Shown here in pieces: positions 13,099 through 19,514 of a stretch of DNA of 64,000 nucleotides (position 1 is its first letter; each line of letters opens with the position of its first letter). The DNA lies in assembly GCF_003003055.1 (NCBI RefSeq), contig NZ_PVTV01000011.1, positions 806,001 through 870,000 of the forward strand, read 5' to 3'. This DNA is from Jezberella montanilacus (GTDB taxonomy: Bacteria > Pseudomonadota > Gammaproteobacteria > Burkholderiales > Burkholderiaceae_B). The notes under the pieces are model-generated. The model saw only the letters and a list, made by a program, of their open reading frames with translations. It was not told the origin of the DNA and made no database searches. Made by a program: the position numbers and the translations under genes.

Positions 13099-13120
13099 GC
13101 CGAGCGTTCAGGCGCTCGGC
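13099..13120. terminator. Strong hairpin between convergent genes
   Basis: GCCGAGCG-TTCAGG-CGCTCGGC is a perfect 8-base-pair G+C-rich stem with a 6-base loop. It lies 18 bases after the hydrolase stop, and the rhodanese stop codon (13108-13110) is within the loop. No T-tract follows on either strand. It probably acts as a bidirectional terminator or 3'-end stabiliser. Confidence 0.6.
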
Positions 13121-14727
13121 TCTAGTACCCAGAAATGATGGGTGCCGTCCCGTCTTAATTGTTCGATCAGGCCAAACTCCCAGTCCAAATAAGCCTGCAT
13201 GGCTTCTTTGCGATTGTCCATGCCTTCATAAGGGCGCTTATACCGATCAAGTGTCGGCGAAAGGCAATTGGCATCTCCTGAATCGAGCGGAAAGCCTGCA
13301 GCTACCCAAGCAGCTAAGCCGCCCTCCAGCACTTCAACATCCGTGTGAACTTGACGTTGGAATTCGTTCGCGGCGAAAGCCGACAGCTTACCGTCCGCGC
13401 AGACCAATACATAGCGTTTATCAGATGGTAAGCGAGCAGCATCTTCGACAATGCGAGAACGTAACAAATGCCAGGCGCCGGGGATATGACCTTTGATGTA
13501 GGCCGCTTGTTTACCCAGATCAACTACAACGATATCGCTGGAGTCGTTCATTTGATCCGCTAAATCACCAACTTCTATCATCTTGACGTCCGGCAGATCT
13601 GGCGTTGAGCCAACCCACACGCCTGTCTCTTGCATGTCATCCATACTTTCTCCATCAAGTACATAGACATCCCAAGCCATCTGAGCCAGCCACGAGGCAG
13701 TCATATTCGCACGCACCCCATCTGTATCGCTCAAGACCAGCCTTGCGCCTCGAACCGCCGCGACCATCTCGGTCTCCTGAACCAGCTGCCCGCCTGGTGT
13801 CGATCTAAAGCCCTCAAGATGCCCCGCTGCAAACTCCTCTGGTGTTCTGGTGTCAAAAAAATAAGTGGTTCGTGCTGTTTGCTGCCGCCACGCTTCCAAA
13901 TCCTGGATGCTGGCTCTTTTAACCCCAGCCCGATCTGCCACTTGCCTAGCCTTTGTCGCCGATTGCTCTCTCGTTGTGGTCGATACCTCAGTAAAGCGTT
14001 TTGCGGCACCCTTGTCTAACTTCTGATCAGCCAACACCCAGCCAATGGTGCCATTGCGCAGCGCACTGACTTGATTAGGGATACCTGCGTTAATCAAGGA
14101 CTGGGTTCCAATAATGCTGCGTGTCCTGCCTGCGCAATTGACGATGACCCGGGTATTAGGATTAGGTGCTAGCTCCGGGACACGCAAAACAAGCTCTGCC
14201 CCCGGACAACTGATGGCGCTCGGGATACTCATAGTCTGATACTCGTCAAAGCGACGAGCATCAACGATCAGGACGTCAGCCCCCTCATCAATCAGCGCCT
14301 TGACCTCTTGTGCCGACAACGAGGGCGTATGCACTTTGGATTCGACAAGCTCGCCAAAGGATTTACTCGGTACATTGACATCAATAAAGACTTCCCCGCC
14401 AGCCTGCTTCCAACCAGTTAGGCCTTGCGTAAAAACATGTACCTGTGAATAGCCGAAACCCATCAAACGCTCAGCGGCCATCATTGCAGTGGTGTCCTCA
14501 CCGCCTTCATCAAAGGTAACGATGACAACATCTTTACGAGGCAATTTAGAGAATGCATCAACCTCGATGCGCGCCAGGGGCAAGTTCGCGGCGAACAGGG
14601 GATGCCCGAGCGCGTGGGGATGCTCTTCTCTCACATCAAGGAAAGCAATTTCTTCGCGCGCGAGTAAACGTGAGCGAACAAACTCGAACTCAACCATTGA
14701 TGGGGCATTCAATTTCTGGGATGACAT
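13108..14727 (-). CDS. Four-domain rhodanese (sulfurtransferase)
   Basis: The protein has four consecutive rhodanese domains in about 539 residues. Numbering from ATG 14727, the active-site loops read VTFDEGGED (domain 1, Asp73), VNCAGRTRS (domain 2, Cys198), LSDTDGVRA (domain 3, Asp334) and VCADGKLSA (domain 4, Cys443). Domains 1 and 3 lack the sulfur-carrying Cys while 2 and 4 have it, so it looks like two classic inactive-active thiosulfate sulfurtransferase units in tandem. An extra C-terminal tail of about 55 residues follows. ATG 14727 is preferred over TTG 14733 because GGAG lies 10 bases upstream. It starts 6 bases after the thiol dioxygenase stop and is almost certainly co-translated. 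The sulfur acceptor is unknown. Confidence 0.85.
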   Translation of the reverse strand: MSSQKLNAPSMVEFEFVRSRLLAREEIAFLDVREEHPHALGHPLFAANLPLARIEVDAFSKLPRKDVVIVTFDEGGEDTTAMMAAERLMGFGYSQVHVFTQGLTGWKQAGGEVFIDVNVPSKSFGELVESKVHTPSLSAQEVKALIDEGADVLIVDARRFDEYQTMSIPSAISCPGAELVLRVPELAPNPNTRVIVNCAGRTRSIIGTQSLINAGIPNQVSALRNGTIGWVLADQKLDKGAAKRFTEVSTTTREQSATKARQVADRAGVKRASIQDLEAWRQQTARTTYFFDTRTPEEFAAGHLEGFRSTPGGQLVQETEMVAAVRGARLVLSDTDGVRANMTASWLAQMAWDVYVLDGESMDDMQETGVWVGSTPDLPDVKMIEVGDLADQMNDSSDIVVVDLGKQAAYIKGHIPGAWHLLRSRIVEDAARLPSDKRYVLVCADGKLSAFAANEFQRQVHTDVEVLEGGLAAWVAAGFPLDSGDANCLSPTLDRYKRPYEGMDNRKEAMQAYLDWEFGLIEQLRRDGTHHFWVLEPSA

Positions 14728-14733
14728 ATTCAA

Positions 14734-15306
14734 CTATCTCCAAAGATTAGGTACGACGTCGTTGCCATAACCCGATATAAATGTTTTGGGTGTGCCCGTC
14801 GAAGGATCGAATACATGGCGACTGATGCGGCCGATGTTGCCGCCGTAGACGTGAATACTGATTGAGGTTTGATCAGAATAGTAATTGGCGACTTGATGCA
14901 CATCGTGCGTTGCGGGTGAAACATAAGCAACCTGACCGGGCGCCAATATTCTTGTTTCACCTGGTTTGAGACTACCGTCAGCTTGCAAATGAAAGCGTGT
15001 GTCCAGTTCTTGACCTCGCAACATCCCGATTAAGCCCCACGTCATGTGGTCATGCACTGGCGTTTTCTGGCCAGGTCCCCAAACGAAACTGACCATAGAG
15101 AATCGCTCTAAAGGATCTGCATACAGCAAATATTGCTGGTAAAAGGTGGGATCGGGGCGAGCGAACTCCTCTTGTAGCCAGTCATCCTGCTCCACAAGGC
15201 TTGCAAGCAAACGGGCGCCCTCGACCAGAATTGCAGGCTCGGATCGGTCTACTGCAAGAAACGAGCTAAAACTGCGAACAAACCCTAAAAGTCGTTCATT
15301 CTTCAT
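14734..15306 (-). CDS. Cupin thiol dioxygenase, Gln-type (3-mercaptopropionate/cysteine dioxygenase family)
   Basis: This 190-residue non-haem Fe(II) cupin would oxidise a thiol to a sulfinate with O2. The first cupin motif VHDHMTWG supplies His85 and His87, and THDVHQV supplies the third His (137 probable). SIHVY (150-154) matches the Ser-x-His-x-Tyr triad of cysteine dioxygenase. Aligning FYQQYL with the family places Gln58 where mammalian CDO has the substrate-binding Arg60; bacterial Gln-type enzymes are known to prefer 3-mercaptopropionate. No Cys is present for a Cys-Tyr crosslink. The alignment is from memory. The rhodanese gene follows immediately. Confidence 0.8.
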   Translation of the reverse strand: MKNERLLGFVRSFSSFLAVDRSEPAILVEGARLLASLVEQDDWLQEEFARPDPTFYQQYLLYADPLERFSMVSFVWGPGQKTPVHDHMTWGLIGMLRGQELDTRFHLQADGSLKPGETRILAPGQVAYVSPATHDVHQVANYYSDQTSISIHVYGGNIGRISRHVFDPSTGTPKTFISGYGNDVVPNLWR

Positions 15307-15442: not shown

Positions 15443-16429
15443 ATGAATACGACTGGATTCAGCATCGCTTGCAGGACGCTAAGATGGATAGTCGTGCTTT
15501 TTGTAAGCGGCATTAGCTTTGCCGCGGCACAATCTTGGCCTACCCAGCCAATTCACATGATTGCTCCGGTGCCGGCTGGCGGTGGCGTTGACATGCTCGC
15601 CAGAGCAATTGCACAAAAGCTTCAGATTGCTTACGGCGTTCCTGTTATCGTCGAAAACAAGTCAGGCGCAAGTGCACTGGTCGGCACTGACTTTGTTGCT
15701 AAATCTCCGGCTGACGGCACTACCCTGTTAATGGGTTATTCGGTGCTGGCAACCAATAAGTTTCTGCTTAAAAGTCTACCTTACGATCTGGATAGCGATC
15801 TTGTACCGGTCGCCTATGTCGGCTATATCCCGCTGATTTTAGTCAGTGCGCCTTCGCTCGAGGCCAATTCGGTGCAGGACTTGATCGCGTTGTTTAAAAC
15901 CAATCCAGACAAATACACATACGCATCGGGCGGAGCAGGAGCCGGAGCGCATCTGTCAGCTGAAATGTTCAAACACATGACGGGTGTATCTTTGCTGCAT
16001 GTGCCATACAAGGGCAACGCGCCCGCCTTAGCTGATTTGTTGGGGGGACATACCTCCGTTATGTTCGACACCATCACGACATCAATTCCATTGGTGCGAA
16101 CTGGCAAGTTGAAGGCGTTTGCAACCACTGGCCCAAAACGATCACCGCTCGCGCCCGACATTCCAACCATGGACGAGGCGGGTGTGAAAGGCTTTGAAAT
16201 GAGCGCTTGGTACATGATATTCGCGCCCAAAAAAACACCACCAGAGGTACTGCAAAAGCTCAATCAGTCAATCAACGAAGTGATCCGCGATCCTGACATG
16301 ATCAAACAGCTAGGCGAACAAGGCGTGGTGTTTACGGGCGGATCATTGGCTCAAACACAGACTTTTCTGGACGATGAAGTGCACCGCTGGGAAACCATCA
16401 TCAATGCTGCAAATATCAAGGCAGAATAA
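15443..16429 (+). CDS. Bug/TctC-type tricarboxylate-family substrate-binding protein
   Basis: This 328-residue periplasmic receptor has a signal peptide (IVVLFVSGISFAAAQS) and the Bug-family N-lobe PIHMIAPVPAGGGVDMLARAIA. VENKSGASALVGTDFVAKSPADGTTLL and LLHVPYKGNAPALADLLGG are further family signatures. Bug proteins bind small carboxylates or amides for tripartite tricarboxylate transporters, but no TctA/TctB genes are in the window. GGAAGGGGGG before ATG 15443 is an unusually strong ribosome site, fitting high receptor expression. It starts an operon whose next four genes are enzymes, suggesting that the ligand is the operon's substrate. Confidence 0.93.
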   Translation: MNTTGFSIACRTLRWIVVLFVSGISFAAAQSWPTQPIHMIAPVPAGGGVDMLARAIAQKLQIAYGVPVIVENKSGASALVGTDFVAKSPADGTTLLMGYSVLATNKFLLKSLPYDLDSDLVPVAYVGYIPLILVSAPSLEANSVQDLIALFKTNPDKYTYASGGAGAGAHLSAEMFKHMTGVSLLHVPYKGNAPALADLLGGHTSVMFDTITTSIPLVRTGKLKAFATTGPKRSPLAPDIPTMDEAGVKGFEMSAWYMIFAPKKTPPEVLQKLNQSINEVIRDPDMIKQLGEQGVVFTGGSLAQTQTFLDDEVHRWETIINAANIKAE

Positions 16430-16432
16430 GCA

Positions 16433-17296
16433 ATGAAAATTTTTGATCTCCACTCCCACTGGGGTACCGAGCGAGGTTACGTATTGAGAACTACGGATGC
16501 CTTAGCTCAGCAAAAGAGCACCTGGAACTCAACGCCTCAATACGATACTGACGAACAGATGGCCGCTTATTTGCGAGCGAACGACGTGCGGACCATTCTG
16601 GATTTTGGCTTTACCAAGAACTTGGCGATAGAGGAGGTGATACCCTTACACGATTATGCGATTGCGACGCAGGCCAAATACAGCGACTGCATATTCGGTA
16701 ACTGGATTCAGCTGGATCCGCGACACGGCGAAAAGGGTGCACAGGAATTCGAGCGTTGCATTCAGGCGAGCAGCGGTTTTGTCAGTTTTTGTGTGTCGTC
16801 CTCAGGTACTGGTTTTGCAGCCAGCGATCCCATCTACCGCCCCATTTATGAAGTCGCACTTGCCTACAAACGACCTGTGCTTGTTCTCGTGGGTCACACA
16901 GGTGCCGGTGCAGGCTTGAGAGGTGGCGCTGGCATCAAACTGGACTTATGCCATCCTCGTTACGTCGACGAACTCGCGATCGATTTTCCTGACCTTGAAA
17001 TTATCACAGGCCGTCCGGCTTGGCCGTGGCAAGACGAAATGATATCGATCATGATTCACAAGCCTAATGTCTGGAGCGAATTGCACGGCTGGTCGCCGAA
17101 GTATCTGACCGATCCATTCAAAAAAGAGATTCGCAGCCGCCTTAAAGATCGTGTGATGTTCGGGGCTGACTACCCCCTTTTCCGCTACGAACGACTTGTC
17201 AATGACTGGAAGGACCTCGGTTACACCGACGATATTCTTGAACGAGTCTTTTATAAAAATGCCGAACGTCTGTTCGGTTTAAACGGGGTCAAGTAA
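16433..17296 (+). CDS. Amidohydrolase family 2 metal-dependent hydrolase/decarboxylase
   Basis: This 287-residue TIM-barrel protein begins DLHSHWG, the HxH metal site of amidohydrolase 2 (PF04909). VGHTGAGAG and MFGADYPLF carry the later His and the catalytic Asp. The family includes aromatic decarboxylases (e.g. ACMS decarboxylase, gamma-resorcylate decarboxylase) and lactone or amide hydrolases; I cannot choose among them. It starts 3 bases after the Bug receptor, and its TAA overlaps the next ATG (TAATG). The tight coupling implies a shared pathway on the imported carboxylate. Confidence 0.85.
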   Translation: MKIFDLHSHWGTERGYVLRTTDALAQQKSTWNSTPQYDTDEQMAAYLRANDVRTILDFGFTKNLAIEEVIPLHDYAIATQAKYSDCIFGNWIQLDPRHGEKGAQEFERCIQASSGFVSFCVSSSGTGFAASDPIYRPIYEVALAYKRPVLVLVGHTGAGAGLRGGAGIKLDLCHPRYVDELAIDFPDLEIITGRPAWPWQDEMISIMIHKPNVWSELHGWSPKYLTDPFKKEIRSRLKDRVMFGADYPLFRYERLVNDWKDLGYTDDILERVFYKNAERLFGLNGVK

Positions 17297-18081
17297 TGGA
17301 TCTCGCGTTGCACGGAAAGTTCGCTCTGGTGGGCGGTGCAAGTCAAGGAATCGGATACGCAATTGCCCACTTGCTAGCAAGCGAAGGAGCAAGCGTGGCG
17401 ATGGTGGCGCGCAAAGAAGAGCCACTAGTTGAAGCCTGCGAGCGAATTCAAAAAGAGACAGGTGCAACTACGCTGCCAATCGTTGCGGACATCCGCAAAG
17501 CTGACGACTGCTCGCGCATCACAAATAGCGCGCTGGATAAGTTTGGTCAGATCGATATACTTGTCAACAACGACGGGGCACCTCCCCTGGGTGACATACT
17601 ATCGTTTGATGATGTTGCATGGGCACGCGCTGTCGAGCAAAACCTGATGAGTGTCATCCGGCTCACTCGAGCTGCTCTACCATCGATGCAAAAAAACGGT
17701 TGGGGTCGCGTGGTTAATATCACAGCGCTGTCCGCAATACAGCCTATCGCGAAGTTTGGATTATCGGTCGCCACCTGGGCGGGTGTCATTGGGTATGCAA
17801 AAACCCTATCGCTTGAAATTGCGGCGCAGAACATCACTGTAAACACGATATGTCCTGGCCGGATCGCGACAGGCCGTCTGGGCACAGTATTTGGGTCGGG
17901 CACTCCTCATCAAATTGACCAAGATCAACTTGCGCAAATGGCCAAACAGATTCCTATGGGGCGCATCGGTCAGCCGGACGAAATTGCTGGTCTGGTGGCG
18001 TTTCTATGTTCACCCTGGGCTGGTTACATAACCGGCTCCGTTCAACATGTCGACGGCGGTCGGCACGGAGGCCTTATTTGA
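17296..18081 (+). CDS. SDR-family protein lacking the canonical Tyr/Lys
   Basis: This 261-residue short-chain dehydrogenase/reductase fold has a nucleotide-binding loop GGASQGIG (residues 13-20) and NNDGAP (91-96, usually NNAG). Counting back from AKTLSLEIA, the YxxxK motif reads SVATW, Ser157 and Trp161 in place of Tyr and Lys. It may therefore not catalyse a standard ketone reduction, or may use other residues, like known SDR subgroups with SxxxR at this site. The ITALS serine region (142-146) is retained. It is translationally coupled to the amidohydrolase (TAATG) and to the ligase gene (TGATG). Confidence 0.85.
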   Translation: MDLALHGKFALVGGASQGIGYAIAHLLASEGASVAMVARKEEPLVEACERIQKETGATTLPIVADIRKADDCSRITNSALDKFGQIDILVNNDGAPPLGDILSFDDVAWARAVEQNLMSVIRLTRAALPSMQKNGWGRVVNITALSAIQPIAKFGLSVATWAGVIGYAKTLSLEIAAQNITVNTICPGRIATGRLGTVFGSGTPHQIDQDQLAQMAKQIPMGRIGQPDEIAGLVAFLCSPWAGYITGSVQHVDGGRHGGLI

Positions 18082-19514
18082 TGAGTGATATGACTAACGT
18101 GACTAACGATCCAAGTTCGTCCAATCACGTACCGTGGTACTTCAGGTCTCTGGATTTTGAAAAGCTCTGGCGCGACTACCCACCGCCGCCCACCTATTTC
18201 GAAACGACTGCAAAGCTATCCAAAGACGAACTTCATCAATTGCAAGAAGAACGTTTTTTACAAACTGTAAAGCGTGGTTGGGAAATACCTTTTTTCAAAT
18301 TGCATTGGGAAGCCCACGGCATGGCACCTGGGGATATCAAAGGGCTTGACGATCTAACGAAGATACCTGTGTACGACGTGAACGATATTCGCAAGAGTAT
18401 TGAGCGCAATCCTCCTTTTGGCGATTTCATGGGTATTAGTCCAGAAGACGGAAAACGTATGCCACTCGTCTTGCAGACAAGTGGAGGTACAACCGGTCTG
18501 CCACGACCGATGCTTTATTCGCCACAGGATCGCGAAACCATGGCCATTCTGGGCGGACGGCGTATGGCCATGCACGGTATCGTACCGGGAGACCTCGTCC
18601 TGGTGGCCTACTCGCTTGGGCTGGGTAACGGTGGAATGGCCCCGCGCGAAGCAATCTGGCGCTACACAGGTGCGGTTCCTGTCATGACAGGAAGCGGCGC
18701 CAACACCCCTACAAGACGACAGCTTGAGATCATCAAAGCCTGGGGCGTCAAGGTAATACTGGCATTTCCATCTTACTTGCGACACATGGCGATTGTTGCG
18801 CGAGACGAAATGGGGATCGATCCTAAATCTCTTGGCATCAGATTATTGGGTACGCATCTTGGGATGGAAAACCGTGAGTTGCTCGAGGATCTCTGGGGCG
18901 CGAAGGCCTTTGATATGTATGGCACACATGAGAGCGGTATGCTGGCTGCCGAATGTCAGCACCAAACGGGCATGCACGTCATGGAAGACGCCTTCATCCT
19001 TGAAATGGCAGATCCTGAAACCGGTGCAATTCTGCCAGATGGTCAAAAAGGGACGACCTACATCACGACGCTCTACAAATATGGAGCCCCCCAAATTCGC
19101 TTTAACGTCAATGACATTTCGGCTTTCCACACAACGCCATGTCCTTGCGGCAACACCTCTCGCCGTTTAAAACGTATTTTTGGTCGCAACGACAACATGA
19201 TCAAGCTACGCGGGGTAAATGTATTCCCTGAAGCAGTAGGCGCAGCTGTCTTGGAGGATAAAAGGACTAATGGCGAATTTTTCTGTTTTGTCGATCGCGT
19301 TGGTGAGGCAGGCGTGGATCAGATGGATGTCTGGATCGAAGTAATCGACGAGTCAGCAGATGTGTCCGATATCAAACAGGACATGGAGCGACGGATGAAA
19401 GAGGTACTGGGCGTTAAAGTCATCGTCACGCCCGTCCCGAAAGGCGGATTAGATAAATTCACGCTGACGTCACAGAGCTCAAAAGTAAAACGCTTGATGG
19501 ATCGTCGCCAATAA
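18081..19514 (+). CDS. Phenylacetate-CoA ligase-like adenylating enzyme
   Basis: This 477-residue acyl/aryl-CoA synthetase belongs to the PaaK-like branch of the ANL superfamily. The P-loop-like motif LQTSGGTTGLPRPM lies near residue 135. DMYGTHESGMLAAECQ is the A5-type region. The Cys-rich CPCGNTSRRLKRIFGRNDNM and KLRGVNVFPEAV are typical of PaaK/F390 synthetase C-terminal parts. It would activate an aromatic or branched carboxylic acid with ATP and CoA. ATG 18081 overlaps the SDR stop as TGATG; upstream in-frame codons lie inside the SDR gene. It forms a compact operon with the receptor, amidohydrolase and SDR. Confidence 0.87.
   Translation: MSDMTNVTNDPSSSNHVPWYFRSLDFEKLWRDYPPPPTYFETTAKLSKDELHQLQEERFLQTVKRGWEIPFFKLHWEAHGMAPGDIKGLDDLTKIPVYDVNDIRKSIERNPPFGDFMGISPEDGKRMPLVLQTSGGTTGLPRPMLYSPQDRETMAILGGRRMAMHGIVPGDLVLVAYSLGLGNGGMAPREAIWRYTGAVPVMTGSGANTPTRRQLEIIKAWGVKVILAFPSYLRHMAIVARDEMGIDPKSLGIRLLGTHLGMENRELLEDLWGAKAFDMYGTHESGMLAAECQHQTGMHVMEDAFILEMADPETGAILPDGQKGTTYITTLYKYGAPQIRFNVNDISAFHTTPCPCGNTSRRLKRIFGRNDNMIKLRGVNVFPEAVGAAVLEDKRTNGEFFCFVDRVGEAGVDQMDVWIEVIDESADVSDIKQDMERRMKEVLGVKVIVTPVPKGGLDKFTLTSQSSKVKRLMDRRQ

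Follow-up and report, generated by a model that had tools for sequence, protein, structure and literature searches.

A predicted 3-mercaptopropionate dioxygenase paired with a tetra-rhodanese in Jezberella montanilacus, and the linkage of paralogous tetra-rhodaneses to mercaptosuccinate-type dioxygenases

Jezberella montanilacus encodes, within the 64,000-nucleotide stretch of its genome analysed here (contig NZ_PVTV01000011.1, positions 806,001 to 870,000; hereafter the window), a cupin-type thiol dioxygenase followed by a protein of four rhodanese domains, that is, a tetra-rhodanese. We find that this gene pair is real and conserved and that it has already been described in Pseudomonas; the role of the rhodanese is the more interesting question. 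What is new here is that paralogous tetra-rhodaneses are linked to thiol dioxygenases of the mercaptosuccinate type, a linkage that includes in-frame fusions. The identity of the two window proteins is not due to chance: over nearly their whole lengths, the cupin matches a solved 3-mercaptopropionate dioxygenase (3MDO) at 210 bits and the rhodanese matches the tetra-rhodanese structure 1yt8 at 657 bits.

The cupin is very probably a 3MDO of the Gln type and is predicted to oxidize 3-mercaptopropionate. Its best matches in the Protein Data Bank (PDB) are four 3MDO-type sequences (6xb9, 3uss/4tlf, the variant 4wvz, and 4qma), at 198–210 bits over nearly its full length, as against 46 bits for the mercaptosuccinate dioxygenase 8vni and less than 39 bits for the cysteine dioxygenases (CDO). 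The iron-binding residues His85, His87, and His137, the triad Ser150-His152-Tyr154, and the residues Gln58, Gly91, and Arg163 are identical in all 61 rows of an alignment of 3MDO-type sequences, although part of this conservation is built in, as the rows were selected by a profile of the same group. Gln58 holds the position that we take to be that of Arg60 in CDO. The initial annotation had noted the Ser-x-His-x-Tyr triad and the Gln in place of the CDO Arg and had placed the protein in the Gln-type branch, and the alignment and the structure matches confirm it on each of these points. Furthermore, the spacing between Gln58 and the first iron-binding His is that of Gln63 in the Azotobacter enzyme, where Gln63 marks the Gln type, and Arg163 is equivalent to Azotobacter Arg168, which binds the substrate carboxylate (PMC8050391).

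Other identities of the cupin were rejected: an Arg-type CDO on account of Gln58 and the low CDO scores, a mercaptosuccinate dioxygenase on account of the gap between its score and those of the 3MDO structures, and a persulfide dioxygenase because the protein is a cupin with 3MDO residues that Pfam assigns to CDO_I. An enzyme of the ETHE1 type would need a metallo-beta-lactamase fold, the fold of ETHE1-type oxygenases, and we found no support for a persulfide substrate in this analysis. The same genome encodes a second CDO_I protein of 219 amino acids (44 bits; G000:C11:51056-51394, locus L001), and no tetra-rhodanese match was found beside it in the 3.3 kb read. No mercaptosuccinate-type cupin was found in the genome at E 1e-5, a search for which that genome held no positive control.

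The two genes are arranged as the initial annotation had read them, with the ATG of the rhodanese 6 bases after the TAG of the cupin (table 1). A GGAGA motif inside the end of the cupin gene stands 9 nucleotides upstream of this ATG and makes translational coupling of the two genes likely; the list of open reading frames offers an alternative in-frame rhodanese start, TTG at 14733, which would give 541 amino acids. Pfam finds CDO_I in the cupin (36.1 bits, cut-off 23) and four Rhodanese stretches in the downstream protein (157 bits). Numbered from the TTG, residues 14–539 align to residues 9–531 of 1yt8, a Pseudomonas aeruginosa structure named "thiosulfate sulfurtransferase," which we take to be PA2603. 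By sequence, then, the window protein is a tetra-rhodanese of the 1yt8 kind and a predicted sulfurtransferase.

How many of its domains are likely to be catalytic is indicated by aligning 109 distinct rows of tetra-rhodaneses, a few three-domain or partial forms included, with 45 from the window branch and 64 paralogues (65 with the window's own second copy, L050, which was left out of this count). In the window protein a Cys opens the active-site loop only in domains 2 and 4. Because only the Cys of domain 2 is invariant across the alignment, a single site is kept family-wide and the others vary: the loop position of domain 1 holds Cys in 0 of the 45 window-branch rows and in 21 of the 64 others, and that of domain 3 holds Asp in every row. 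Domains 1 and 3 appear scaffold-like, and the Cys of domain 4 is retained mostly in the 3MDO-linked branch. The "quadruple rhodanese" of the initial annotation therefore stands as regards its four domains, which both Pfam and the 1yt8 match support, but not as four active sites. Unlike 1yt8, whose domain 4 loop reads CGSSLLA, the window protein has CADGKLS at this place. Shorter relatives of about 425–430 amino acids also occur (L153, L154, and L209, 5582-6856); in that of L209, which is paired with a 3MDO in Sphingobium sp. TomTYG65, Pfam finds three rhodanese stretches.

Table 1. Features of the gene pair in the window, and a related plasmid cluster.
Feature	Position	Strand	Details
3MDO-type cupin	14734..15306	(-)	190 aa; Pfam CDO_I, PDB matches, conserved residues
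Tetra-rhodanese, orthologue of PDB 1yt8	13108..14727	(-)	539 aa from ATG at 14727; Pfam, PDB match
6-base gap, cupin stop (TAG) to rhodanese ATG	14728..14733	(-)	Read from sequence
GGAGA, putative rhodanese ribosome-binding site, within cupin gene end	14737..14741	(-)	Sequence; function inferred
Domain 2 active-site loop CAGRTRS, Cys198 (ATG numbering)	14116..14136	(-)	Cys in 109/109 distinct rows
Domain 4 loop CADGKLS, Cys443 (ATG numbering)	13381..13401	(-)	Cys in 39/45 window-branch rows, 3/64 paralogues
Tetra-rhodanese and Cupin_2 protein ending a monooxygenase - sulfonate ABC transporter - LysR cluster	L211, L212, 4441-6550		Agrobacterium/Rhizobium plasmids

The survey of gene adjacency that the initial annotation had proposed bears out a conserved pairing. 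When one genome per species was scanned, the rhodanese lay directly downstream on the same strand in 27 of 29 cupin loci (L003–L029), and was lacking in L030 and L031. A 3MDO-grade cupin is present in 8 of 249 genomes drawn from the phylum; the rhodanese is adjacent in five of these, 3.7 kb off on the same strand in G202, and unlinked in G150, and G139 has just a paralogue, which lies on the opposite strand at a distance of 3.3 kb. In the order, 3MDO was found in 53 of 300 genomes (54 genes, E < 1e-45), and 15 of the 300 carry a tetra-rhodanese of the window branch, taken as E < 1e-180 plus a split match in G300, a cut that was set after the table was seen. The two co-occur in 14 of these 15 genomes (odds ratio 88, p 8e-11 by Fisher's test, which ignores relatedness), and they are adjacent on the same strand, cupin first, in eight of the 15 and near one another in two (3.7 and 7.3 kb). 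Homologous pairs elsewhere, including in Pseudomonas, rule out that the pair is unique to the lineage of the window.

Paralogous tetra-rhodaneses are linked to a different thiol dioxygenase. We opened 64 paralogue loci (60 of the 63 rows of the order and four of the phylum, leaving aside order rows G383:C351, G344:C162, and G331:C17 and phylum rows G200, G111, G217, and G091), and a mercaptosuccinate dioxygenase-like cupin lies upstream in 24 of them. It is adjacent in 13, if gaps of up to 478 bases (L124) are allowed, fused in six, and about one gene apart in five, in four of which the intervening gene belongs to one cluster of pyridoxal phosphate (PLP) enzymes of Cys/Met metabolism (Pfam on one member). 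One of the 24 cupins, that of L117, gives 108 bits to 8vni and matches no Pfam family. A separate draw from the phylum yielded nine mercaptosuccinate-type cupins in 6 of 398 genomes, six of the nine being with or in a tetra-rhodanese.

The in-frame fusions are found in L103, L115, L116, L118, L130, and L132, with a seventh in G661 (L202). A further named case is QRF62141.1 of Variovorax paradoxus VAI-C, annotated "sulfurtransferase" (CP063167.1; L207 4959-7211), whose 2253-bp gene is covered in one piece by residues 3–712 of the fused query. The fused protein of L116 scores 463 bits against 1yt8 and 130 bits against 8vni, and its AlphaFold2 model (mean predicted local distance difference test, pLDDT, 95.6; predicted template modelling score, pTM, 0.94) overlays both 1yt8 (Z 58.1, 515 residues, root mean square deviation 1.5) and 8vni (Z 26.8, 191 residues, root mean square deviation 1.9). 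A quick tree without bootstrap scatters the fusions over three positions and puts the window protein within 27 rows that all have an adjacent 3MDO; because of long branches, among them L103, L132, L186, and L190, the number of fusion events is unsure and three origins are not firm. The link between thiol dioxygenase and rhodanese that the initial annotation had drawn is borne out by these fusions as well. No description of the fused form was found in the extracts of the openly licensed PubMed Central (PMC) literature, which is weak evidence of absence.

The pair itself can no longer be called possibly undescribed, as the initial annotation had it. In Pseudomonas protegens CHA0, 3mdo-tst (c14110-c14100) is an apparent transcription unit whose genes are homologues of PA2602-PA2603 (PMC12947264, section 3.4). 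Deletion of 3mdo causes accumulation of 3-mercaptopropionate, an antifungal metabolite of this biocontrol bacterium, and since both genes were deleted, the pair has precedent and so has a first test of it (PMC12947264). PA2602 is among the genes directly controlled by the LysR-type regulator BsrA (PMC8407307), and in Advenella mimigardefordensis and Variovorax paradoxus B4 the msdo gene has genes for a cystathionine beta-lyase and a rhodanese in its cluster (PMC5373536). In extracts of the open PMC literature, nothing relevant was found on PA2598-PA2601 or on tandem rhodaneses.

Compared with these systems, the window pair shares both families and their order with PA2602-PA2603 and P. protegens 3mdo-tst, the solved P. 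aeruginosa proteins being 3uss/4tlf (3MDO) and 1yt8. It also shares with the msdo clusters of Advenella and Variovorax the combination of a thiol dioxygenase and a rhodanese gene, and similar loci in our set carry tetra-rhodaneses. Unlike in the window, however, the msdo-cluster cupin is of the mercaptosuccinate type (8vni-like), a PLP enzyme can intervene, and the rhodanese of msdo-like loci is a paralogue with roughly 31–47% identity to that of the window. Fusions of ETHE1-type persulfide dioxygenases with rhodanese (e.g., PDB 5ve4) are parallel in logic, in that an oxygenase of small-molecule sulfur is coupled to a rhodanese, but the oxygenase of the window is a cupin and its rhodanese has four domains. 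The mdo-acd cluster that serves dithiodipropionate use in Advenella involves the same 3MDO reaction, whereas the figure legend that describes it places an acyl-CoA (coenzyme A) transferase, regulators, TctC receptors, and the desulfinase Acd around mdo and names no rhodanese (PMC5373536).

We hypothesize that the window pair is a two-gene organosulfur-scavenging unit: oxidation of the thiol would ultimately yield sulfite, to which the rhodanese would add sulfane sulfur, a proposal to which we give even chances. By homology, the cupin would very likely convert 3-mercaptopropionate and O2 to 3-sulfinopropionate. The sulfinate sulfur would then be freed as sulfite, as in the Advenella route, where the sulfinate is desulfinated through a CoA thioester (PMC5373536). 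The rhodanese might load sulfane sulfur on Cys198 of domain 2 and hand it to sulfite to form thiosulfate, or run in reverse, and it would be an accessory that is dispensable for the first oxidation.

The emphasis on sulfite comes from the company that tetra-rhodaneses keep. A characterised relative of the cupins linked to the paralogues belongs to a pathway that ends in sulfite, as Advenella and Variovorax convert mercaptosuccinate to sulfite (PMC5373536). Outside the first scan, an SsuD-like flavin monooxygenase is encoded near the pair in 6 of 10 adjacent-pair loci (L104, L108, L109, L111, L112, and L113 of L104–L113, nine of the ten being from other families and L105 from the family of the window). 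Enzymes of the SsuD type release sulfite. Similar genes accompany the pair on plasmids, in records that were hand-picked rather than random: six were opened for the pair among 70 with a cupin match, two had no gene table there, and all four annotated ones have ABC transporter genes near the pair, three an LLM or alkanesulfonate monooxygenase, and two a TauD-type gene; the rhodanese on the Sphingobium plasmid is the three-domain form. Furthermore, a gene of the TauE/SafE (sulfite exporter) family lies directly upstream of three paralogues (Pfam on one). In L105 (1045-6185), TauE, Sulf_transp, and DUF6691 genes face the pair and a protein of metallo-beta-lactamase fold is encoded beyond them, an arrangement that resembles a sulfide/persulfide detoxification operon. 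Four genes elsewhere in the window's own genome score above the TauE cut-off, and that genome also encodes three molybdopterin oxidoreductases and a single distant flavin monooxygenase (36% identity). The Pfam assignments of neighbour clusters come from one or a few members each, and the cluster counts are likely to be low because gene calls in GC-rich genomes are rough.

Several observations weigh against this hypothesis. Within the clade of the window, sulfonate genes were not observed next to the pair: the SsuD-like monooxygenase cluster (Pfam on two members) occurs in 0 of 29 first-scan loci, and it is also found in 0 of 20 and 0 of 20 loci in two further sets. TauE is a broad family, present in 14 of 14 control genomes, and in 37 of the 64 paralogue stretches read a recognised thiol dioxygenase and an adjacent TauE are both lacking. 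On Agrobacterium and Rhizobium plasmids, a tetra-rhodanese and a Cupin_2 protein are encoded in a cluster for sulfonate transport that has no recognised thiol dioxygenase. The pair genes are unlinked in 4 of the 15 window-branch genomes of the order (three times on different contigs), G359 has the rhodanese of this branch without 3MDO, and in two Azospirillum plasmid records the best cupin and rhodanese places are far apart (H3/H58 and H9/H59). Among the 53 genomes with 3MDO in the order, 39 lack the window-branch rhodanese; 29 of these 39 have only a paralogous tetra-rhodanese and 10 none. This rules out that the rhodanese is needed for 3MDO and makes it an optional partner: the rhodanese branch is tied to 3MDO, and 3MDO is not tied to the rhodanese branch. 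Genomes with only paralogues also show an excess of 3MDO (29 of 48; odds ratio, ignoring relatedness, 14.5); therefore, part of the co-occurrence is not branch-specific, and a common lifestyle or kinship may explain some of it. Lastly, the P. protegens tst deletion gave a null result under one condition, with 3-mercaptopropionate at 1716 versus 1457 pg/OD (optical density) at 4 h and 1968 versus 1750 at 8 h, neither difference being significant (PMC12947264). Since the thiol level was not significantly changed, this outcome is consistent with a step that follows the first oxidation or runs parallel to it, without proving it.

The Agrobacterium plasmid Cupin_2 protein, encoded downstream of the rhodanese, has no usable similarity to the window cupin, and its PDB matches include no thiol dioxygenase. 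An open reading frame that by eye resembles the Agrobacterium/Rhizobium Cupin_2 protein stands at 12642-13103 of L103, near a 3MDO and a fused cupin-rhodanese.

Other roles for the rhodanese have been considered. It might act upstream of the dioxygenase, stripping sulfane sulfur from persulfides of 3-mercaptopropionate or mercaptosuccinate and thereby freeing the thiol for oxidation. The PLP enzymes found between cupin and rhodanese in four of the five one-gene-apart loci suit such a role, as enzymes of Cys/Met metabolism that depend on PLP can make persulfides from disulfides, and fusion would hold both activities together. However, 3-mercaptopropionate did not rise significantly when tst was deleted, although it was the thiol and not persulfides that was measured, and the many 3MDO genomes that lack the window-branch rhodanese also speak against this role, which we regard as improbable. 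Alternatively, the rhodanese might serve organosulfur-use or sulfur-starvation regulons as a general carrier of sulfane sulfur that supplies biosynthesis or buffers persulfide, sharing regulation but no chemistry with the dioxygenase; this seems to us rather unlikely. Such a role would account for tetra-rhodaneses in sulfonate clusters, also where no thiol dioxygenase is recognised, for the unlinked orthologues, and for the null phenotype of tst, but the repeated in-frame fusions to a thiol dioxygenase and the cupin-first order of all eight adjacent pairs of the order suggest closer coupling. Finally, it is very improbable that the two genes are neighbours for historical or regulatory reasons alone and that the rhodanese plays no part in 3-mercaptopropionate use: the tst result and the 39 3MDO genomes that manage without this branch are compatible with it, whereas the co-occurrence in 14 of 15 genomes includes the four with unlinked genes, and the paralogues are linked in parallel to another thiol dioxygenase.

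The surroundings of the pair in the window (15443-19514, divergent from it) contain a gene for a TctC receptor, followed by amidohydrolase-, SDR-, and CoA ligase-like genes, the last three named by eye. Clusters of such amidohydrolase-, SDR-, and CoA ligase-like genes are present again in 8–9 of 29 related loci, and a phenylacetate-CoA ligase is likewise encoded near the pair in Azospirillum thermophilum. A different setting is seen at 3MDO genes without an adjacent rhodanese (L135–L152), where a family III CoA transferase cluster occurs in 9 of 18 loci and an enoyl-CoA hydratase-like cluster in 10 of 18 (Pfam on one member per cluster).

Returning to the proposed sulfite-consuming unit, we tentatively extend it to the family as a whole, although we consider this less likely than not: the tetra-rhodanese may be a dedicated partner of organosulfur enzymes that release sulfite, namely 3MDO, mercaptosuccinate-type dioxygenases, and the enzymes of sulfonate clusters. 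The fusions would then be single thiol-to-thiosulfate enzymes, a cupin counterpart of the ETHE1-rhodanese proteins, with the window pair as the version in which 3MDO and rhodanese are not fused. 3-Mercaptopropionate is a thiol found in the environment, and the linkage of tetra-rhodaneses to two thiol-dioxygenase families, together with the fusions, leads to a precise and testable hypothesis in which the rhodanese acts on sulfite and sulfane sulfur. If true, it would provide a function for a widespread protein to which the records opened give no annotation beyond "rhodanese-like" or "sulfurtransferase."

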